A stretch of 64,000 bases of DNA from Rhodopseudomonas pseudopalustris (lineage in GTDB: Bacteria > Pseudomonadota > Alphaproteobacteria > Rhizobiales > Xanthobacteraceae). A model generated the notes under the pieces. It saw only the letters and a list, made by a program, of their open reading frames with translations. It made no database searches and had not been told where the DNA came from. Where the stretch lies: the NCBI RefSeq assembly GCF_900110435.1, contig NZ_FODT01000003.1:124001-188000 (forward strand), given 5' to 3'. The number at the start of each line of letters is the position of its first letter. Positions within the stretch are counted from its first letter, which is position 1. This document shows, one piece after another, positions 3,804 through 26,349 of this stretch. Made by a program: the position numbers and the translations under genes.

Positions 3804-3877
3804 TGGGGAATGGTGTAACGGTAGCACAACAGACTCTGACTCTGTTTGTCTAGGTTCGAATCCTAGTTCCCCAGCCA
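3804..3877 (+). tRNA. tRNA-Gln (anticodon CTG)
   Basis: A complete cloverleaf can be drawn. The acceptor stem is TGGGGAA with TTCCCCA, the anticodon stem is ACAGA/TCTGT with loop CTCTGAC (anticodon CTG), and the T arm is CTAGG/CCTAG around TTCGAAT. Discriminator G and an encoded CCA follow. The 262 bases between the PYP gene and this tRNA hold no convincing gene. Confidence 0.97.

Positions 3878-5988: not shown

Positions 5989-5989
<1 letters not shown>
5621..5989 (-). CDS. exported small protein, last gene of the metal-efflux operon
   Basis: The 122-residue product has a clean signal peptide (MKKILLVASALLFAGPALAQ) and then HVHQKGPNGGRLEDVAGVHL, which has several histidines and resembles the short N-terminal domain found in some CzcB/CusB-type periplasmic adaptors. 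The rest is a compact beta-rich domain. Its ATG overlaps the czcA stop by one base (TGATG at 5991-5987), so translation is coupled. Inference: a periplasmic metal-binding or accessory protein for the pump. The larger frame running upstream through czcA is a shadow and was discarded. Confidence 0.8.
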
Positions 5990-9222
<3,233 letters not shown>

Positions 9223-9279
9223 TCAGAGAATTCCGCCGCCAAATATTGAGGCCGCTCGACGTCACGCATTGGACTGCGA

Positions 9280-10275
9280 TCAGTGATCATGGGACGCCGC
9301 TCCCTTCGCCATCTCCGCCTTGACGACGAAGCTGTTGGTGGCGGCGTATTTGTCGCCGGTCATCAATCCGAACAGCACCTCCACGTTCTCCGAATCCCGC
9401 CCGCCGATTTCGATCTCCCGGGCCTCGAATTTCGCTCCGTTCCGAACGAAGACGACGTTGCGGTTCTCCAGCGACTGGATCGCCGAGGCCTTGACCGCGA
9501 TCGGCACCTGCTTGGCGGACAAGATCAAACGTGCCGATACGAACAGGCCGGCGCGCAGCCGCCCGGCGTCGTTCGCGACCACCGCACGAACCAGCGCGCT
9601 CTGCGTGTCGCTGCTGCCGACCGGAGACATGTAGGAGAGTTGCGCTTCGATCGGCTTGCCGCCGTCACCAACGTCGATGATGACGGTGTCACCGAGACGC
9701 ACGCGGGGCAGATCGCGCTTGTACACCGACAGATCCACCCAGACGGTCGAGATGTCGGCCACGATAAAGGCGGGCTTCTGCTCCGAGGCGTACTCGCCGA
9801 GCGAGATCTGGCGATCGATCACCGTGCCGGAGATCGGCGCGCGCATCTCATAGGTCGTGAGGCTCTGGTTGCTCTCGATCCTTGCGAGAAGCTCACCCTT
9901 CTCGACGGCGTCTCCGAGACGCTTCCTGATCTCCCGGACGACACCCGGAAATCTCGGAGTGACCTGGACCAGGGTTTCCTGATTGGGCGTCAGGATGCCG
10001 TTGAGCACGATCGTATCGTGCAGCGTCGCCCCGGCAGCGGTCAGGATCTCGATGCCCGCTGCGCCGACCTTGGCATCGGTCATCTCCACGACATCCTCTC
10101 CGGCGTGCCCTTCGTCCTCGTGTCCCTTCCCGCTATGCCCCTTCTCCGCATGGCCGGATTTTCCAGCCGTGTCGGCAACAGGCGCTGCAGATTTGTCGGG
10201 CGCATAGGCAAAGACACCGGCGCCGATCGCAAGGACGCCGAGCGCGGCCACGACCATTGTGATCGACTTGTTCAT
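9280..10275 (-). CDS. czcB: periplasmic adaptor (membrane fusion protein) of the metal efflux pump
   Basis: The 331-residue product has an N-terminal membrane anchor or signal (MVVAALGVLAIGAGVFAYAP). A His-rich segment follows at about residues 40-60 (SGHAEKGHSGKGHEDEGHAG), then barrel-sandwich and beta-barrel domains typical of CzcB/CusB adaptors (MRAPISGTVIDRQISLGEYA). The C-terminus ends in SHDH. The His cluster suggests metal capture in the periplasm. The ATG overlaps the stop of the outer-membrane factor gene by four bases. Together with czcA and czcC it forms the trans-envelope pump. Confidence 0.92.
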   Translation of the reverse strand: MNKSITMVVAALGVLAIGAGVFAYAPDKSAAPVADTAGKSGHAEKGHSGKGHEDEGHAGEDVVEMTDAKVGAAGIEILTAAGATLHDTIVLNGILTPNQETLVQVTPRFPGVVREIRKRLGDAVEKGELLARIESNQSLTTYEMRAPISGTVIDRQISLGEYASEQKPAFIVADISTVWVDLSVYKRDLPRVRLGDTVIIDVGDGGKPIEAQLSYMSPVGSSDTQSALVRAVVANDAGRLRAGLFVSARLILSAKQVPIAVKASAIQSLENRNVVFVRNGAKFEAREIEIGGRDSENVEVLFGLMTGDKYAATNSFVVKAEMAKGAASHDH

Positions 10276-11543
10276 CGCGCGCTCCCCCGAGCCAATGCAA
10301 ATGGGTTGCCGACCAGCCCCTCGATGGTGGCGACGGCGACATGGAAATTCTGCTGGGCTTCTTGTTCACGCAGGCGGGCCTGGGCGACGCTGGCCTGCGC
10401 GTCCAGAACCTCGAGAAGCGAATAGCGGCCCTGCCCGTACCCTTCGAAGATCGCGGCAGAAGCGTCCCGCGCTTTTGGAATGCCGGTCTCGCGCAGGATC
10501 GCAAGTTCGCGCAGCGACCCCTGCAGCGTGTCGTAAGCGCGTCCCGCCAAGACGATCAGGGTATTCCGGTTGGCCTTCCGCTCGGCCGCGGTTTTGGCAA
10601 GGCTCTCCTGCGCCGACAGGATGTTGCCCTGGTTCTGATCGAACAGCGGGATCGGCACCGAGACGGCGAGACGCACGGCATTGTCGCCGGTCTCGTTGTA
10701 TCGGCGCCAGCCGACCGAGAGGTTCACGTCCGGATAGGGCTTCAGACGCGCGAGTATCAGCTGCGCGTTACGTTGCGCGTAGATCGCCTGCCATCGAACC
10801 AGTTGCGGATTCGCATCGATCGCCGTTACCACGGCCTGGAAAGACGGTGGGCGACCGATCGAGTCCAGCCGCCCGGACACCGCGCTGAACTTCGGAGCGG
10901 TGTCTCCGATCAGGATCGCGAGTTCGCGACGCGCCGTCGCAAGCGATGCTTTGGTACGCTCGCGATCGGCCTTGACCAGAGCCGAGGCCACTTCGGCCCG
11001 CCCGGTTTCCGCGATCGACGAGGCGCCTGCATCGACGCGCCGCTGCAGCAGCGGCGTCAGCTTGTCGATGGCGTCGACCTGTTCGTCGAGGATCTCGATC
11101 CTGCGCTGCAGTCCGAGCACGTTGAGGAACGCGATCGCCGCCTCGGACAGCACTTCGAGCCGCACCGCCTGGCGCTCGATCGCCGCCGTATCGAGACCGG
11201 CCTGCCCGGCCGCGATGCGTGCGTCTCGCTTGCCCCAGAGCTCGAACATCTGACTGATCTGCAGCGCCGACTCCGCCGATCGCGTTCCCCGGTAGGCTCC
11301 GGAGCCAAAGGAGTCATCCAGATCGTAGGATATCTCCGGGTTGATCAACGCTCCGGACTGGATGCGCTGCCCCCGCGCGATGCCGACGTCGCGCTCGGCA
11401 GCCGTCAGCCGTGGGCTTGTCGCGAGCGCGCGCTGAAGCGCTGCCCCCATGGTGAGGGTTTGCGAATGCGCGACACCTGTCAGCGAAGAGCCGACAAGCA
11501 ACGCAGCCGCACACGCGAGGCGCGTGGCGTATCTGAACAACAT
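10272..11543 (-). CDS. czcC: outer-membrane efflux factor (TolC/CzcC family)
   Basis: The 423-residue product starts with a signal peptide (about 1-27, cleavage near GVAHSQ). It then shows the duplicated long-helix arrangement of outer-membrane efflux proteins, with ALATSPRLTAAERDVGIARG in the first half and AIDANPQLVRWQAIYAQRNA in the second. It is the first pump gene of the operon, followed by an ATGA overlap with czcB, and provides the exit duct. Its family usually runs 400-450 residues, so it is complete. Confidence 0.92.
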   Translation of the reverse strand: MLFRYATRLACAAALLVGSSLTGVAHSQTLTMGAALQRALATSPRLTAAERDVGIARGQRIQSGALINPEISYDLDDSFGSGAYRGTRSAESALQISQMFELWGKRDARIAAGQAGLDTAAIERQAVRLEVLSEAAIAFLNVLGLQRRIEILDEQVDAIDKLTPLLQRRVDAGASSIAETGRAEVASALVKADRERTKASLATARRELAILIGDTAPKFSAVSGRLDSIGRPPSFQAVVTAIDANPQLVRWQAIYAQRNAQLILARLKPYPDVNLSVGWRRYNETGDNAVRLAVSVPIPLFDQNQGNILSAQESLAKTAAERKANRNTLIVLAGRAYDTLQGSLRELAILRETGIPKARDASAAIFEGYGQGRYSLLEVLDAQASVAQARLREQEAQQNFHVAVATIEGLVGNPFALARGSAR

Positions 11544-11596
11544 GCTGAAACCTGACGAACGACGGACTCAGGGCGCGATGCGCCCGGCGATAACGT

Positions 11597-11974
11597 TCAG
11601 GTCAGGTTTTTGGGTGGTGGCGTGTCGAGCCAGGCATGATCGGCGGGCACCAGCGATGCCACCGACATGTCGCCGGCAGCAGGCACGCCGCAGGGGACGG
11701 CGGTGATCAAGGGCGCCGGCAGTACAGCCGGAACGCACGTCGGACAGTGATCGCAGAGGACGATGTCGGATTTCGTCCCGCTGTCATGTGACGGATCGAG
11801 CGACGGATCGGCAGCCGTTTCGAGGGCGACGCTGGAGGCGACGGCCTGATCGAAACAGCTGGCGTTGTGGGCGATCCCAACGAACAGATAAACGAACGCA
11901 AGGACCATCAACAGGCCGCGGCGAAAACTGCCCGCGCGCCTCGTCGATGAATCGATGCCGATCGTTTGTGCCAT
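11597..11974 (-). CDS. small membrane/exported protein with CDHCPTC motif preceding czcCBA
   Basis: Starting from the ATG at 11974 the product is 125 residues. It has a hydrophobic helix (GLLMVLAFVYLFVGIAHNAS), an acidic middle with Asp and His residues, a CDHCPTC cluster and a C-terminus ending DHAWLDTPPPKNLT. A TTG at 12022 would add 16 residues; neither start has a good ribosome-binding site. It is 53 bases upstream of czcC on the same strand and probably opens the operon. I do not recognise a family name. Cys and His residues on the outer face suggest a metal-related role, which is inference. No metal-responsive regulator gene is seen nearby. Confidence 0.65.
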   Translation of the reverse strand: MAQTIGIDSSTRRAGSFRRGLLMVLAFVYLFVGIAHNASCFDQAVASSVALETAADPSLDPSHDSGTKSDIVLCDHCPTCVPAVLPAPLITAVPCGVPAAGDMSVASLVPADHAWLDTPPPKNLT

Positions 11975-12341
11975 GCTGGGCGAATACCAAAACGCCGATG
12001 CGAACACTATCACAATCGACAACGCCCAAGGGATTTTGACACGCGCGGAACCGATTGGCCGCAGGCGTCATCACCCTCGTTTGCGAGTTCCGGACACAAA
12101 TCGCGCCGATGTCAGTCGATCGTCAGCGTGGTCAAAACCACGACCTCACGGTTCCGGGCTGCCTCCGCAACGACGGTCTCAACGCCGCCGCCATTGAGCC
12201 GCAGGAGCGACGGCTCAATCCTGATCCGCACAACCTGAAGACGCGCGTTTGATCATGACGCGCCATGCGTGCATCTGCTATTCTTCTTCCCTCACGCCGG
12301 ACGGAAGCCCACAGGTTGGAATTGGCGAGGTTGAGAGGCGT
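11975..12341. other. gene-free stretch between the metal operon and the speD-like gene, with one hairpin
   Basis: No frame in these 367 bases looks like a gene. The only structure seen is an inverted repeat at 12193-12219, ATTGAGCCG and CGGCTCAAT around a nine-base loop. It has no T run on either side, so it is not a clear terminator. Confidence 0.4.
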
Positions 12342-12692
12342 TCAGGGGCGCGCGGCGATTTTGCGCGGGACGTGATGCACGGTCATCTCGCCATCGGGGC
12401 AGACGCTGCGCTTCACCTCGGCGAGGACGCGGTTGAAATCCATCTCCGGATTGCACAACAGCACGTCGACCAGCAGCAGCCGATGTTCCGGCCAGGTCGT
12501 CAGCACGATGTGCGATTCGGCGAGGAACAGCGCGATGGTCAGCCCATGCGGGACGTAACGCACCTCGTAGGAGCCGATAATGGTGGCGCCGACGCTCTGG
12601 ACCCCGGCGCGCGCCGCCGCTACCAAGGCGGCTTCATCCTCGATCAGCGGCAGGCAGTCATACATCTCTGCCAGCGCGTGGGTCATCAACAT
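12342..12692 (-). CDS. SpeD-like protein (S-adenosylmethionine decarboxylase proenzyme family)
   Basis: The 116-residue product has the size and core motif of short prokaryotic SpeD proenzymes. The segment LFLAESHIVLTTWPEHRLLL contains Glu-Ser-His, whose Ser becomes the pyruvoyl group after self-cleavage, and LLVDVLLC follows with the conserved Cys. At the position of Thermotoga His68 (ESHLTIHT) this protein has Thr (ESHIVLTT), so a residue used in self-processing is changed. It may be AdoMet decarboxylase or one of the reported SpeD homologues that act on other amino acids. The start at 12692 has GAGGA ten bases upstream. It is divergent from the BpsA-like gene, with 104 bases between them. 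Confidence 0.82.
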   Translation of the reverse strand: MLMTHALAEMYDCLPLIEDEAALVAAARAGVQSVGATIIGSYEVRYVPHGLTIALFLAESHIVLTTWPEHRLLLVDVLLCNPEMDFNRVLAEVKRSVCPDGEMTVHHVPRKIAARP

Positions 12693-12796
12693 CGGCGATT
12701 GGTCCTCGATGGCGGTTCAGTTTCGGCGCCTGTTTGGCATGGATAGCGGCGTGGGCCAACCGCGGCGAAGCCCGTCCTTTTGCGGAGCGCGCCGCG

Positions 12797-13951
12797 ATGG
12801 CTGATCCCACGATCCTTCGCACGATCGCCGAGGCGACGCGGCTGCGCGAGGGCCCGGCAGGCGTCGAGGCGATCCTGCGCGCGGTGTATCGCGCGGGCTC
12901 GCTGCGGCTGCAGGACGCCGCACGCGAGGCGCGACTGCCGATGCCGATCGCGACCGCGGTGCGCCGTGAGCTGGAAAAGGCCGGGCTGCTCGAGCGCAAG
13001 CAGGGTCTGGCGCTGAGCCCCGAGGGCCGCGATTTCGTCGAGCGCGAACTCGGGCTCGGCACCGCGATCGACGTCACCTGCCCGGCCTGCACCGGTCATG
13101 GCGTGGTGATTCCCGAGAATTTTCACGTCCAGGTGGTGCGACTGGCCGCGATCATCGCGCAGGCCCCATCGGTCGACGTCACGCTCGATCAGGCGCCGTG
13201 CACCCCTGAGACCTCGCTGTTGCGCGCGCTCTTGATGCTGCAGGCCGGCGCGCTGGAAGGCCGCCGGGTGCTGCTGCTCGGCGACGACGATTCAGTGTCG
13301 CTGTCGATCGGCCTCGTCAGTCAGGCGCTCGGCAAAGGCGATCTCACCCGCGGAGTCGTGGTGGTCGACGCCGACGAGCGACGGCTCGCATTCCTGCGCG
13401 ACAGTGCCGCGCGCGAAGGCATCGCGCTGCGCACGGTGCATCACGATCTGCGCCAGCCGCCGCCCGCCGAGCTGCAGGGTGCGTTCGACACGATCGAGAC
13501 CGACCCGCCCTACACGCTCGAAGGCGCGAAGCTGTTTCTCACCCGCGGCCGCGAGGCGCTGGCCGGCGACGGGCTGTGCTACTTCTCGTTCGCGCAATGG
13601 CCGCCGCGGCAGATGCTGGCGCTGCAGCGGGTTTTTCTCGACCTCGGCCTCGCGGTGCAGACGATCCGTCCCGGCTTCAACGCCTATGCGGGCGCCACTG
13701 TGCTCGGCAATGTCGGGCAACTGATCGAACTCGCCGCGGCGGGCCCCGCCGCGGCCGCGCTGCCGGCGTGGCAGGGGCCGCTGTACACTGCCGAGGTCAA
13801 TCCGCGCATCCGTGCCTATCTCTGCACGCAGTGCGGCCGCGAGAGCGTGCTCGGGCGCGGCTCCACACCGGAGACCATTGAGGCACTCAAGGAACAGGGC
13901 TGCGCGAATTGCGGCGGGCACAGCTTCCGCCGCAAGACCGGCGGGACCTGA
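12797..13951 (+). CDS. BpsA-like branched-chain polyamine synthase (DUF43 family)
   Basis: From the ATG at 12797 the product is 384 residues. Residues about 1-80 form a winged-helix domain (GSLRLQDAAREARLPMPIAT). A Cys pair CPACTGHG follows, then a Rossmann-like aminopropyltransferase core with VLLLGDDDSVSLSIGL, VVVDADERRLAFL, HHDLRQPPP and FDTIETDPPYTLEGAKLFL. These match my memory of N4-bis(aminopropyl)spermidine synthase from Thermococcus. The C-terminus carries a second Cys set (YLCTQCGRE then CANCGG), a zinc ribbon. Family members transfer aminopropyl groups from decarboxylated AdoMet to polyamines. The upstream TTG at 12734 would add residues that look non-coding. The actual polyamine made is unknown. 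Confidence 0.85.
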   Translation: MADPTILRTIAEATRLREGPAGVEAILRAVYRAGSLRLQDAAREARLPMPIATAVRRELEKAGLLERKQGLALSPEGRDFVERELGLGTAIDVTCPACTGHGVVIPENFHVQVVRLAAIIAQAPSVDVTLDQAPCTPETSLLRALLMLQAGALEGRRVLLLGDDDSVSLSIGLVSQALGKGDLTRGVVVVDADERRLAFLRDSAAREGIALRTVHHDLRQPPPAELQGAFDTIETDPPYTLEGAKLFLTRGREALAGDGLCYFSFAQWPPRQMLALQRVFLDLGLAVQTIRPGFNAYAGATVLGNVGQLIELAAAGPAAAALPAWQGPLYTAEVNPRIRAYLCTQCGRESVLGRGSTPETIEALKEQGCANCGGHSFRRKTGGT

Positions 13952-14029
13952 CGACGAGCCATCGGAAAGACGGACTTGCCGGCCGTCGCAGTTCGTGCGA
14001 ACGCGGCGGCAGAATTCTGGAGTTGAACG

Positions 14030-14497
14030 ATGAACGACAAGCCCCTGCACACGCTGCGCCCGCTGGAGCGCGCGGACCTCGAGAAGATCGGCTGGATGGA
14101 AGCCGAGATCGCCAAGATCTCGTTTCCGGACGATCCGATCACCGACGTCGCCTTCTATGTGAAGAAGCTGGAGAAGCTGTTCGGCGACAAGGAAGCCGCC
14201 ACCTTCGTCGCCGAGCGCGACGGCGAGATCGTCGGCTGGTCCTATGTCAGCATCCGCCGCAACTTCATCACCAAGCAGCCCTATGGCGATTATCACAGCA
14301 TCTACATCGACCCGTCGCAGCGCGGCTCGGGGCTGTCGAACCTGCTGATGAACTCGGTGTTCGATTGGTGCAGGGCGCAGGATCTCGGCCACGTGGTGTT
14401 CCGCACCCGCGCCACCAACGAGCCGATGAAGGGCGTGCTGGCGCGCGTCGGTTTCGTGCCGACGCAGATCTATCTGGAAAAACCGCTCAAGGATTGA
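14030..14497 (+). CDS. GNAT-family N-acetyltransferase
   Basis: The 155-residue product has the GNAT core: ATFVAERDGEIVGWSYVSI, then the acetyl-CoA loop YIDPSQRGSGLSNLLMNSVF, then NEPMKGVLARVGFVPTQIYL. It begins 78 bases after the bpsA-like stop on the same strand, so co-transcription is likely. Acetyl acceptors of GNAT enzymes range from polyamines to protein N-termini. The polyamine context makes a polyamine or branched polyamine acceptor attractive, but that is inference. The gene ends eight bases before a palindromic repeat shared with the 3' end of rsmJ. Confidence 0.88.
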   Translation: MNDKPLHTLRPLERADLEKIGWMEAEIAKISFPDDPITDVAFYVKKLEKLFGDKEAATFVAERDGEIVGWSYVSIRRNFITKQPYGDYHSIYIDPSQRGSGLSNLLMNSVFDWCRAQDLGHVVFRTRATNEPMKGVLARVGFVPTQIYLEKPLKD

Positions 14498-14504
14498 GCG
14501 CTAT

Positions 14505-14556
14505 AGCGTTTTCGAGCGATCCGGTTCTGATTCTATCAGAACCGGAAAAACTCTAG
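14505..14556. repeat. short palindromic intergenic repeat, copy 1
   Basis: AGCGTTTTCGAGCGA is followed by a perfect 11-bp hairpin (14521-14545, CCGGTTCTGAT with a TCT loop) and then AAAAACTCTAG. The same two blocks occur at 26916-27013, where an extra middle section is present. It lies between convergent genes, so it may also act as a two-way terminator. The last codons and the stop of rsmJ are inside it. Confidence 0.85.
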
Positions 14557-15198
14557 ATCGCCCGCGCGCAGCAAAGCCTCTTCAGCCGGAGCGCGCGGAT
14601 TCACGAACACGTCGTAGCGCACCGTCTTGCCGGCGATCTGGTAGGACGGCTTGCGGATGCCTGCGAGCGGCTCGGCGCGCAGCGGCCATTTCAGCACGAC
14701 GCGGCCGCAGCGCGCGACCAGCGCCGCCTGCATCAAGTCGGCGACGTCCGGATCGGCGCCGACCATCTCGCGCAGCAGACGCATCTCCTGCTTCACCAGC
14801 GCCGTCTTGGTCCGCGCCGGATGCATCGGATCGACCGTCACCACATCGGCCTGCAAGGTCGGCAGCAACGCACGCGCATCGCCGTGGATCAGCGTCATCC
14901 GCGCGACGATGGCGGCGATCTCGTCGCTCTCCGCCCGCGCGGCCTCGAGCCCTTGCGCGAGCAGCGCGTGGACCTGCGGCGAGCGCTCGATCAGCATCAC
15001 CGTCGCGCCCATCGAGGCGAGCAGGAAGGAATCGCGACCGAGCCCCGCGGTGGCATCGATCACATGCAGCGGACGATTCGCGGAAACGCCGGTCGCCTTG
15101 AGGAGAGCGTGACTGCGGGCTGCGCCGGAGCGTAGCTTGTAGCCGACCGCGCCGCCGACGAAATCGACGGCGAGCGCGGAGCGGCTGATCCTGCCCAT
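14536..15198 (-). CDS. rsmJ: 16S rRNA (guanine1516-N2)-methyltransferase family protein (RsmJ)
   Basis: The 220-residue product has the SAM-binding motif VIDATAGLGRDSFLLASMGA, then MLIERS, HGDARALLP and the catalytic-type motif VVTVDPMHPARTKTALVKQE, and later VGADPDVADL and RVVLKWPLRAEPL. This order is that of RsmJ, which methylates G1516 of 16S rRNA. It starts four bases after the degP stop and so forms the end of the hfl/degP operon. The last eight residues and the stop (LEFFRF and TGA) are encoded by a palindromic repeat, so the C-terminus may be recently altered. Confidence 0.88.
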   Translation of the reverse strand: MGRISRSALAVDFVGGAVGYKLRSGAARSHALLKATGVSANRPLHVIDATAGLGRDSFLLASMGATVMLIERSPQVHALLAQGLEAARAESDEIAAIVARMTLIHGDARALLPTLQADVVTVDPMHPARTKTALVKQEMRLLREMVGADPDVADLMQAALVARCGRVVLKWPLRAEPLAGIRKPSYQIAGKTVRYDVFVNPRAPAEEALLRAGDLEFFRF

Positions 15199-15201
15199 GG
15201 G

Positions 15202-16701
15202 CTATTGCAGGCTGAGCGCCACGAAGCGCAATTCGCCCTCGCCGTTGGCGACCAGCAGCAGGACCGACTTCTTGCCGTCCTTCTTGAGCTGGTCGACGCG
15301 CTTCTTGATGTCGGCGGCGCTGGTCACCGCTTCCTGCGCGACCTCGACGATCACGTCGCCGGCCGACAGCCGCTTCTCGGCGGCGTCGGAGCCGCTGTCG
15401 ACGCCGACCACCACCACGCCCTTGACGGTTTCCTTGATCTTGTAGCGGCCGCGCAGATCCTTCGACAGCGCCGCGAGGTCGAGCCCGAGCGCCTTCTGCG
15501 TCACCGGCTTTTCCGGTTCAGGCTGTGACTTCGCCGAGGCAGGCTGCGGCTTGGCGCCGTCGTCGAGACGGCCGAGCGTGACCTGCTTGGTCTCTTCCTT
15601 GCCCTTGCGGATGATCACCACGTCGACGGTCTTGCCGACCGCTGTGTCGGCGACCACGCGCGACAGATCCTTCGGCTCCTTGACGTCCTTGCCGTCGAAC
15701 TTGACGACCACGTCGCCGGGCTCGATGCCGGCGGGTTTCGCCGGCCCCTTGTCGTCGATGCCCGCGACCAACGCGCCGCGCGCCGGCTTGATATTCAGGC
15801 TCTCGGCGATTTCGTCGGTGACCTGCTGGATTCGAACGCCGAGCCAACCGCGGCGCAGCTCGCCGAACTGCCGAAGTTGATCGACCACGCCGACCACAGT
15901 CTTCGACGGCACCGCGAACCCGATGCCGATCGAGCCGCCGGACGGCGAGATGATCAGCGTGTTGACGCCGATGACTTCGCCGTTGAGGTTGAACAGCGGG
16001 CCTCCGGAATTGCCGCGATTGATCGCAGCATCGGTCTGGATGTAGCTGTCATAAGGCCCGGAATTGATGTCGCGGTTGCGCGCCGAGACGATGCCGGCAG
16101 TCACTGTGCCGCCGAGCGAGAACGGGTTGCCGATCGCCACCACCCACTCGCCGAGCCGCAGCTTGTCGGAGTCGCCGAACTTCACGGCGGTGAGCGGCTT
16201 GTTCGCCGGCGGCTTGAACTTCAGCACCGCGAGGTCGGTCTTCTTGTCGACGCCGACCAGTTCGGCTTTGATCTTGGTGCCGTCGTTCATGATGAGATTG
16301 ATCTCATCGGCGTCGGCAATGACGTGATTGTTGGTCACGGCGACGCCTGCGGTGTCGACGATGAAGCCGGAGCCGAGTGAATTGGTCTTGCGCGGCCCGC
16401 CGCCCTTCTCGCCGCCACGGCGGTTCTTGAAGAAGTCGTCGAAGAACTCCTCGAACGGCGAACCCGGCGGCAGATTCGGCGTGGCGCCCTTCCCTTCGCC
16501 GGGTGAATTCTTGGCTTCAACGGTCTGGGTGGTCGAGATGTTGACCACGGCGTCAATCACCTTTTCGGCGACGTCCGCGATGCCCTCGGGACCGCGGGCG
16601 TGGGACGGCGCCGGCGCGCTCAAGGCAACGGCTGCCCCGAGGCAGATCGCCGTCAGCAGGGGCCTGTTCCGGAAGCTGAAGGCAGGGATCGCAGCGGGCA
16701 T
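15202..16701 (-). CDS. degP: periplasmic serine protease/chaperone of the DegP/HtrA family
   Basis: The 499-residue product has a signal peptide (LLTAICLGAAVALSAPAPSHA). A trypsin-like domain follows with the triad visible as His126 (VTNNHVIAD), Asp156 (KKTDLAVL) and Ser232 (NRGNSGGPLF). Two PDZ domains come next, about 270-360 and 400-490. A linker near 75-105 is rich in Gly, Phe and Lys (FFDDFFKNRRGGEKGGG). It degrades or refolds damaged envelope proteins. It follows hflKC and the DUF2065 gene on the same strand, a common alphaproteobacterial order. AGGAG lies about 11 bases before the ATG. Confidence 0.95.
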   Translation of the reverse strand: MPAAIPAFSFRNRPLLTAICLGAAVALSAPAPSHARGPEGIADVAEKVIDAVVNISTTQTVEAKNSPGEGKGATPNLPPGSPFEEFFDDFFKNRRGGEKGGGPRKTNSLGSGFIVDTAGVAVTNNHVIADADEINLIMNDGTKIKAELVGVDKKTDLAVLKFKPPANKPLTAVKFGDSDKLRLGEWVVAIGNPFSLGGTVTAGIVSARNRDINSGPYDSYIQTDAAINRGNSGGPLFNLNGEVIGVNTLIISPSGGSIGIGFAVPSKTVVGVVDQLRQFGELRRGWLGVRIQQVTDEIAESLNIKPARGALVAGIDDKGPAKPAGIEPGDVVVKFDGKDVKEPKDLSRVVADTAVGKTVDVVIIRKGKEETKQVTLGRLDDGAKPQPASAKSQPEPEKPVTQKALGLDLAALSKDLRGRYKIKETVKGVVVVGVDSGSDAAEKRLSAGDVIVEVAQEAVTSAADIKKRVDQLKKDGKKSVLLLVANGEGELRFVALSLQ

Positions 16702-25495: not shown

Positions 25496-25861
25496 CGTTC
25501 CCTCCCCGTTTCCGGGCTTTGTCGCCCATTTGTTTGTCGGCGGCGTTACTTTCCTGAGTATCTATTTTCGTTTGATAACGCCAGCGAAACCCCGAACGCC
25601 GCCGGCCGGCAGTGACCATGACGAACTCATCCGGGTGACGCCGGTGGACCACCGCTACGATGCGGCGACAGGCGCCGCGCCCGGCGTGGCGACAGGCGCG
25701 CCACGCCATCGGAGGCTGTCGCCCGGATCAGGCCACTCAAACAGACCGATCCGATTGACAGTTTTCCACCGGCCGCCTCTCGCATTCGGCCTTGCTGTCG
25801 CATGGGCGACGTTTTGACGGGGAATGCCCTTTCGCCCCAAGCCATTGCCCCCTATATTGGA
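25496..25861. other. gene-free stretch upstream of tctB and ssrA, with a possible ssrA -10 box
   Basis: No reading frame here looks like a gene. TATATT at 25853-25858 sits about seven bases before the first hairpin of the tmRNA region and could be its -10 element; no good -35 element was seen at the right distance. The left part must hold the tctB promoter on the minus strand. Confidence 0.4.
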
Positions 25862-26181
25862 AGCGTCGGGGCAACCCGACTATGGAAATAAATGGCCGTC
25901 GTAATAAACCATTCGGACCCGGGGGCAGTACCCGGCGCCTCCACCAAAGCCCGTGATTCCGCGGGTTTCGGCGGGGGCGAAATAGGATCGACGAGGGCGT
26001 AAAGGGCTTGCTTTTTCTCGGTATTGTTCCGCCGTTATCGGGCTAATGCAATAGTTGCCAACGACAACTATGCTCCGGTTGCTCAGGCTGCGTAACGCAG
26101 TTTGAAAGACCAAGTCTAAAGTCCTAACGGGTTAAGCTCCGTTAGGCGGGGTTCGGAGGCACCTGGCAACAGAAGCCTCCA
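25862..26181 (+). ncRNA. ssrA: transfer-messenger RNA, circularly permuted two-piece form
   Basis: The region contains all parts of an alphaproteobacterial permuted tmRNA. A hairpin at 25865-25880 (GTCGGG, GCAA loop) starts the acceptor piece, which ends GCGCCTCCACCA at 25946. After a short spacer the coding piece begins GGGGGCGAAATAGGATCGAC at 25973, and its 5' end pairs with GCCTCC of the acceptor end. The tag frame at 26057-26095 reads ANDNYAPVAQAA then TAA. A final hairpin GGAGGC/GCCTCC ends at 26180. tmRNA rescues stalled ribosomes and tags the product for ClpXP. The exact 5' and 3' ends are estimates. The adaptor gene sspB lies about 210 bases downstream. Confidence 0.93.
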
Positions 26182-26349
26182 CTTTATCTTGCATGAGCGT
26201 CCCTCGACGCCCCTTACACCGACGCAGGGCCGCACAATATTCAGCCGTGATGCCTGCTGACCCCGGCCCGCCGCCGGGTTACGATCCGCAGCCGGGACGC
26301 GAGTCGGCCTGACACCGGAGCCAATCAGCGTTGAAGCATCCGAGCGACC

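Follow-up and report, generated by a model that had tools for sequence, protein, structure and literature searches.

A SpeD-like, BpsA-like and GNAT gene trio conserved in alphaproteobacteria: a candidate module for polyamine aminopropylation

Does the chemistry of BpsA, an aminopropyltransferase best known from thermophiles, also operate in an ordinary alphaproteobacterium, and if so on which amine? The question is raised by three neighbouring genes, coding for a SpeD-like, a BpsA-like and a GNAT protein, in a stretch of 64,000 nucleotides of Rhodopseudomonas pseudopalustris (contig NZ_FODT01000003.1, positions 124,001 to 188,000; hereafter the window), whose host genome amounts to 5.27 Mb over 28 contigs. 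We read the trio as an alphaproteobacterial variation on the polyamine chemistry of BpsA and SpeD, within a known kind of system, and we put at roughly 0.55 the probability that it is a module for the aminopropylation of a polyamine dependent on decarboxylated S-adenosylmethionine (AdoMet; dcAdoMet when decarboxylated). Our literature search, which reached few subscription papers, found no publication on the trio among the entries listed. A 2026 review of branched-chain polyamines calls these amines thermophile-specific; neither "Alphaproteobacteri" nor "zinc" occurs in its text, where alpha-proteobacteria are mentioned once, on putrescine.

A preliminary description of this DNA had proposed a self-contained module making a branched polyamine from these genes. 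Pfam searches confirm the three open reading frames (ORFs) where it had placed them, and the locus reads as follows:

12342..12692, minus strand: SpeD-like protein of 116 amino acids, a class 1b AdoMet decarboxylase homologue (Pfam AdoMet_dc and alignment to Thermotoga maritima SpeD)
12693..12796, no strand: divergent region of 104 bp between the SpeD and BpsA starts (ORF positions)
12797..13951, plus strand: BpsA-like aminopropyltransferase homologue of 384 amino acids (Pfam BpsA_C; ATG start backed by relatives)
13280..13291, plus strand: GDDD motif of the BpsA-like protein (three Asp invariant in 26/26)
13502..13516, plus strand: DPPYT motif of the BpsA-like protein (its Asp aligns with Asp225 of Thermococcus kodakarensis BpsA and is invariant in 26/26)
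13823..13912, plus strand: C-terminal zinc-ribbon-like CxxC-x22-CxxC, a putative metal site (Cys343, 346, 369 and 372 invariant in 26/26)
14030..14497, plus strand: GNAT protein of 155 amino acids (Acetyltransf_1; closest solved folds, the polyamine acetyltransferase DpA)

The mechanically called BpsA-like ORF opens at TTG 12734, but alignment with relatives favours ATG 12797, from which the 104 bp to the start of the divergently oriented SpeD-like gene are counted; 78 bases separate its stop from the GNAT start. An Rfam search of window positions 11500-15300 gave no match, hence no regulatory RNA candidate in the cluster, and a shared promoter motif was discarded as a candidate, since 12 aligned divergent regions (L027-L037 and the window) revealed by eye only start-proximal conservation.

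Relatives were sought with an alignment of six BpsA-like proteins across genome_contigs (one genome per species, 84,980 species) by a scan relying on two exact peptide patterns. A pattern occurred in 86 stretches, and relatives are encoded in 26 of them: L027-L039 from Rhodopseudomonas, Bradyrhizobium and kin, L040 from Rhodothalassium salexigens, and L041-L052 from Aureimonas, Aurantimonas and Mangrovicella, which we take to be Aurantimonadaceae. The carriers are presumably mesophilic, to judge from their genera, and the closest BpsA-like protein among these loci (90% identity) comes from a metagenome-assembled genome (MAG) labelled Rhodopseudomonas palustris. By tblastn, 25 of the 26 loci have relatives of both SpeD and GNAT no more than 10 kb from the BpsA-like gene, so that the trio recurs elsewhere, and the lack of co-occurrence that would have refuted the preliminary description is not seen; at L040 neither was found within that distance, the rest of this genome not having been searched for a GNAT. 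Three gene orders occur in the 25 complete loci. The order of the window, with the GNAT gene adjoining bpsA, is shared by 11 of the 13 loci L027-L039; L038 and L039 have the order GNAT, SpeD, BpsA; and in the 12 Aurantimonadaceae loci the BpsA-like gene is separated by 2.0 to 7.3 kb from SpeD and GNAT genes that form a divergent pair. A grouping kept through such reshuffling is probably functional. The pairwise distances of each of the three proteins correlate with those of the others (Mantel r 0.86-0.90 over 25-26 loci, values reached by none of 999 permutations), as expected of genes inherited together. The arrangement is not due to chance, since all three proteins are jointly conserved.

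The same coupling appears in 198 genomes of the window's family, which are not independent of each other and three of whose six carriers are apparently also among the 26 loci. PF01861 scored above its cut-off in eight of them, with six proteins of the window type (143-153 bits, window genome included) and two shorter ones. Matches to PF02675 were obtained in 56 of the genomes, and the divergent SpeD (70.7-87.2 bits) is present in exactly the six that have a window-type BpsA, one of which (G387) has a canonical SpeD in addition; the other 50 SpeD-bearing genomes, 49 with at least 114 bits and one with a partial match of 41.6 bits, have no window-type BpsA. In the class sample PF01861 exceeded its cut-off in 2 of 385 genomes, the window's own included; the module is therefore rare.

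The BpsA-like protein is homologous to BpsA, in sequence and fold, over the N-terminal and catalytic domains. It hits Pfam BpsA_C with an E value of 2.1e-41 (142 bits, cut-off 27) and the BpsA structure 5xnc of the Protein Data Bank (PDB) with 5.8e-29, and in profile comparison its positions 7-303 match solved BpsAs (5xnc, E 1.4e-46; 6j28, E 1.9e-35) up to the equivalent of Tyr290; NCBIfam gave no match. The GDDD and DPPYT motifs noticed earlier are both present, and GDDD and the equivalents of Asp225 and Tyr290 of T. kodakarensis BpsA, numbered by hand with a 20-residue tag offset, are invariant in the 26 aligned proteins. In T. kodakarensis BpsA, GDDD positions the aminopropyl group of dcAdoMet and acidic residues of the tail carry that group (PMC12979288). 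The nine best fold matches of an AlphaFold model of the window protein (mean pLDDT 83) are BpsA or its Pyrococcus homologue. Their modest template-modelling scores (0.50-0.53 by query), a root-mean-square deviation near 20 and a pLDDT below 50 at residues 332-336 led us to draw no inference on domain placement.

Family homology is equally clear for the SpeD-like protein (Pfam AdoMet_dc, E 1e-19, 71.3 bits, cut-off 25), which stays under the NCBIfam equivalog cut-off for adenosylmethionine decarboxylase (54.9 vs 75.65 bits). Its residues 4-99 align with PDB 1tlu of T. maritima (E 1.2e-11), so placing Ser60 at the pyruvoyl-forming Ser63 and Cys80 at the catalytic Cys83, and both residues are invariant in the 26 cluster SpeDs, as are Pro48 and Pro68 of the central region. 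Cluster SpeDs reach 70-87 Pfam bits, and canonical SpeDs, taken from the family and from the top of the class list, 114-137. A Ser55-to-Thr exchange was considered as a further diagnostic feature and dropped, since Thr occupies this position in several canonical SpeDs too.

For the GNAT protein the assignment is broader. It matches Pfam Acetyltransf_1 (E 5.2e-15) and lies far under the cut-offs of all its NCBIfam matches; its model (pLDDT 92) finds DpA, 8a9o, as best Foldseek match (E 2.5e-10), with SpeG in the first ten and other GNATs interspersed, at 16-21% identity to the DpA/SpeG matches inside a large superfamily. Sixteen of the 51 profile matches are polyamine acetyltransferases of the spermidine, diamine or DpA kind (8a9n bears such a name only among the fold matches), and the rest are other GNATs with an unassigned protein at the top. 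The invariant residues are group-specific (R-x-NFIT and TD-x3-Y-x2-K). The usual CoA-loop motif of GNATs is Q/RxxGxG/A, and the Arg/Gly pattern of this loop is degenerate in the Aurantimonadaceae members.

Which amine could such enzymes modify? The window genome has one SpeD and one BpsA_C match, with no second copy of either, and no spermidine synthase (PF01564) over the cut-off, the single match reaching 21 bits against 22.9 and lying far under the NCBIfam aminopropyltransferase cut-offs. It does encode, at a locus separate from the trio, a homospermidine synthase (PDB 4plp, E 1.1e-258), and about 3 kb from it a pyridoxal phosphate (PLP) decarboxylase with best PDB matches to lysine/ornithine decarboxylases (E 1.3e-61), followed by diaminopimelate decarboxylases (9e-34). 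The genome contains two PF02784 genes, one being lysA and the other closest to lysine/ornithine decarboxylases, though NCBIfam lists lysA first for it, below cut-off. A carboxyspermidine dehydrogenase was considered and rejected: one of the two PF03435 matches is the homospermidine synthase and the other falls, by eye, in an apparent sugar-nucleotide dehydratase. Homospermidine is thus probably the acceptor in the window strain, and the module is less self-contained than had been claimed, as its triamine must come from another locus.

Twenty-four of the 26 loci are in searchable genomes (L041 and L045 were left out). Of these 24 carriers, 21 match homospermidine synthase and have the divergent SpeD as their only SpeD, their best PF01564 matches reaching at most 54.4 bits. 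The other three (G584, G590 and G594) show no homospermidine synthase match and have a canonical SpeD (127-129 bits) beside a spermidine synthase (166-189 bits); two of these synthases pass two NCBIfam cut-offs, and that of Rhodothalassium passes one and lies just under the other. Every carrier searched therefore has a triamine route and a SpeD, although single absences may be false because many carriers are MAGs. In R. salexigens (L040, L053) the BpsA-like protein is of the zinc-ribbon-like type, no homospermidine synthase was matched in the genome, and a canonical-type SpeD/SpeE pair lies elsewhere in it, so that a canonical SpeD is present where the divergent one is missing, as expected if the BpsA-like enzyme needs dcAdoMet. 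The major polyamine reported for this species is linear N1-aminopropylhomospermidine (PMC11999265, citing Hamana 2001), which is consistent with an aminopropyltransferase that uses homospermidine as acceptor. This agreement falls short of proof, because the organism has SpeE, shows no homospermidine synthase match, and the same amine is made by other enzymes.

On these grounds we propose that the SpeD-like protein would decarboxylate AdoMet and that the BpsA-like enzyme, as its homology and motifs suggest, would bind the resulting dcAdoMet at GDDD and move the aminopropyl group onto the main triamine of the cell. The predicted acceptor is homospermidine in the window strain and in 21 of the 24 carriers searched, and likely spermidine from canonical SpeD/SpeE in the three carriers without a homospermidine synthase match. 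With homospermidine the product would be aminopropyl-homospermidine, either branched at the central nitrogen or linear. As the weakest step, the GNAT protein may N-acetylate this product, tuning its charge or fate. Such acetylation, also suggested in the preliminary description, agrees with the polyamine acetyltransferases among the best folds; in 14 of 25 loci, however, the GNAT gene stands beside speD and not beside bpsA. The identity of the genes and their linkage are established, and the branching, the product and its acetylation are predictions from sequence. If ordinary alphaproteobacteria do harbour a conserved BpsA module, BpsA chemistry would be uncoupled from heat and aminopropylhomospermidine would have a further possible origin. 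Such a module would also put two claims to a natural test, namely that the acidic carrier tail is indispensable to BpsA and that the pyruvoyl group of AdoMet decarboxylase cannot form without His68.

Several observations weigh against this aminopropylation scheme. In the BpsA-like protein Glu259 is not kept, the aligned stretch reading FAQWP in the window protein and varying among the 26, and the acidic carrier tail of the thermophile enzymes is replaced in all 26 by CxxC-x22-CxxC, preceded by YT-x-[ED]-x-x-P-[RK]; an acidic position 333 (Glu in 23, Asp in 3) is the sole remnant of that tail. The replaced tail and the linear polyamine reported for one carrier (PMC11999265) leave the claim of a branched product unsupported. 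PF01564 matches over the cut-off (22.9-54.4 bits) occur in 15 of the 21 carriers with homospermidine synthase, and some could be aminopropyltransferases. Aminopropylhomospermidine is also made by pairs of carboxyspermidine dehydrogenase and decarboxylase (CASDH/CASDC) and by some spermine and thermospermine synthases (PMC11999265, PMC11107197), and that of Rhodothalassium may have another origin, given its own SpeE, the missing homospermidine synthase match and the lack of a GNAT gene within 10 kb; for carriers other than Rhodothalassium the literature searched yielded no polyamine profile. The exact-pattern scan will also have missed distant relatives, perhaps without SpeD or GNAT. Finally, the processing His68 of T. 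maritima corresponds to Thr65 in the SpeD-like protein and is Thr in 26 of 26 cluster SpeDs. Ser63, His68 and Cys83 of the T. maritima enzyme are essential for self-processing (Li et al., PMC10407285), and the H243A mutant of human AdoMet decarboxylase is slow to activate and is arrested at the ester (PMC3975893). The activity of the SpeD-like protein is therefore doubtful without help, and the cluster SpeD would be either matured differently, matured with help, or inactive. Of its proposed role as dcAdoMet supplier, then, the family homology and the Ser/Cys pair stand, and activity is not to be assumed.

It is this missing histidine that gives some appeal to the idea, unlikely in our opinion, that the GNAT protein is no metabolic acetylase but a PanZ-like accessory driving pyruvoyl formation in SpeD. 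Thr in all cluster SpeDs contrasts with His in every one of the 61 further SpeDs from alphaproteobacteria whose motif could be read, a non-random set of mostly top-scoring listed matches, some near-identical and three from carrier genomes. It comprises 33 proteins from L053-L055 and L063-L092, 20 from L093-L112 and 8 of 12 from L121-L132, the motif not being readable in L123-L125 and L129. A GNAT gene is found at 25 of 25 loci with a His-less SpeD and not within 10 kb at L040, whose genome has only the canonical SpeD; it adjoins speD, not bpsA, in the 12 Aurantimonadaceae loci, L038 and L039; the degenerate CoA loop of the former points the same way; and PanZ, a GNAT acting on the PanD zymogen, provides a precedent (PMC4410942). 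On the other side, PanZ is named neither among the 51 profile matches nor among the best 50 of 873 fold matches with E <= 0.001, a set that leans towards polyamine acetyltransferases; the GNAT gene adjoins bpsA and not speD in 11 of the 13 loci L027-L039; the tracking of SpeD and GNAT is not specific because the distances of all three proteins correlate; and L040 is a single locus whose genome was searched for a GNAT only nearby. Fold and profile evidence opposes kinship with PanZ and not a convergent PanZ-like role. It is tempting to go further and imagine a His-less AdoMet decarboxylase matured in trans by a dedicated GNAT, as a second, independently evolved pair of the PanZ/PanD kind, which would feed a zinc-ribbon BpsA without acidic tail and yield aminopropylated homospermidine outside thermophiles; we consider this composite picture rather unlikely.

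The same histidine could instead mean that the SpeD-like protein is a catalytically dead structural partner of the BpsA-like enzyme, in the manner of the SpeD-derived N-terminal domain of human spermine synthase, with AdoMet itself or some other donor taking the place of dcAdoMet. That human domain is non-catalytic. Its descent from SpeD (PMC11999265), the loss of His68 in 26 of 26 proteins and the strict pairing with window-type BpsA across the 198 genomes would suit this explanation. We nevertheless judge it quite improbable: the pyruvoyl Ser and catalytic Cys, needless in a dead partner, are invariant in 26 of 26, the absence of any other detected SpeD in 21 of 24 genomes would leave these cells making no dcAdoMet, yet GDDD, the dcAdoMet site, is invariant, and the Rhodothalassium BpsA-like enzyme has no such SpeD.

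Doubts about the BpsA-like enzyme itself lead to a further alternative, to our mind very improbable, by which it would be an AdoMet-dependent amine N-methyltransferase or act on an amine that is not a polyamine, the product being a conjugate or metabolite and not a free polyamine. The DPPY motif is typical of amino-methyltransferases, and beyond BpsA the folds listed for the model are methyltransferases, METTL5 among them. In addition, an FkbH-like gene (L041:11441-13147 and its equivalents in L042-L052) abuts speD in an operon-like manner in 12 of 12 Aurantimonadaceae loci, its start lying 6 bases before to 22 after the SpeD stop as extrapolated from the alignment; this arrangement hints at a polyamine conjugate in the group, although NCBIfam confirmed the FkbH domain for L041 alone. 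Against this alternative speak the nine best folds, the invariant GDDD, the coupling to SpeD and the finding of no FkbH relative in L027-L039, L040 or the neighbourhood of the window trio. Least probable of all is that the SpeD-like protein is a pyruvoyl-dependent ornithine or arginine decarboxylase (SpeDC/SpeDA) supplying putrescine rather than dcAdoMet. The window genome does show the hallmark on which Li et al. (PMC10407285) relied, a SpeD homologue with no spermidine synthase scoring above the cut-off, but their genomes lack canonical ornithine or arginine decarboxylases whereas that of the window has a close lysine/ornithine decarboxylase homologue; SpeDA is marked by loss of one conserved Pro (position not stated there) while Pro48 and Pro68 are invariant here; the protein is paired with a BpsA-like aminopropyltransferase; and the Rhodothalassium SpeD is of canonical type.

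The trio is flanked on one side by a metal exporter gene and on the other by genes for an RsmJ-like methyltransferase and a Do-type protease. The exporter side continues into a metal efflux gene set at window positions 5989-11543, whose outer-membrane gene (10272-11543) matches IhpA with 798 bits (cut-off 650). RsmJ was rejected as a member of the module and taken for a bystander: L027-L039 have it nearby in 11 of 13 cases, and it was not found at L035, L039, L040 or the 12 Aurantimonadaceae loci. Plasmid carriage was also dismissed, as the sole match was weak and belonged to a Nonomuraea record of 11.9 Mb. A different, shorter BpsA_C protein, scoring 72.1 and 66.8 bits, occurs in two genomes of the family (L024, L025), one of them from the window's genus; neither genome gave a SpeD match, and neither stretch matched GDDD or DPP[YE]T. 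Elsewhere in the window we observed a tRNA-Gln at 3804-3877 and, at 25851-26186, an ARAGORN call flagged 'tmRNA*' with the tag ANDNYAPVAQAA.

How the favoured aminopropylation module stands among known systems can be seen protein by protein. BpsA of T. kodakarensis and Thermus thermophilus (N4-bis(aminopropyl)spermidine synthase, EC 2.5.1.128) is of the same family and shares the GDDD, Asp225 and Tyr290 equivalents, but the enzymes described here are found in alphaproteobacterial hosts, have DPPYT where those of thermophiles have DPPET or DPVEG, carry a zinc-ribbon-like segment in place of the acidic tail, have lost Glu259, and are linked to a divergent SpeD and a GNAT. Like class 1b SpeD of the T. 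maritima type, the cluster SpeD keeps the pyruvoyl Ser and catalytic Cys, and it differs by Thr for His68 and by lower Pfam scores. With SpeDA and SpeDC (Li et al. 2023, PMC10407285) it has in common the occurrence of a SpeD homologue without a clear spermidine synthase, but it is paired with an aminopropyltransferase homologue in a genome that also has a PLP lysine/ornithine decarboxylase homologue. The GNAT protein shares its fold with the spermidine and diamine acetyltransferases SpeG and DpA, the latter its best Foldseek match, from which it is set apart by low identity, its own invariant motifs and, in the Aurantimonadaceae, the degenerate CoA loop. As for PanZ (PanM), the GNAT activator of the PanD zymogen, it shows no such protein among its matches and any interaction here is predicted only; the resemblance lies in the association of a GNAT gene with a small zymogen of a pyruvoyl enzyme that lacks a normal processing residue.

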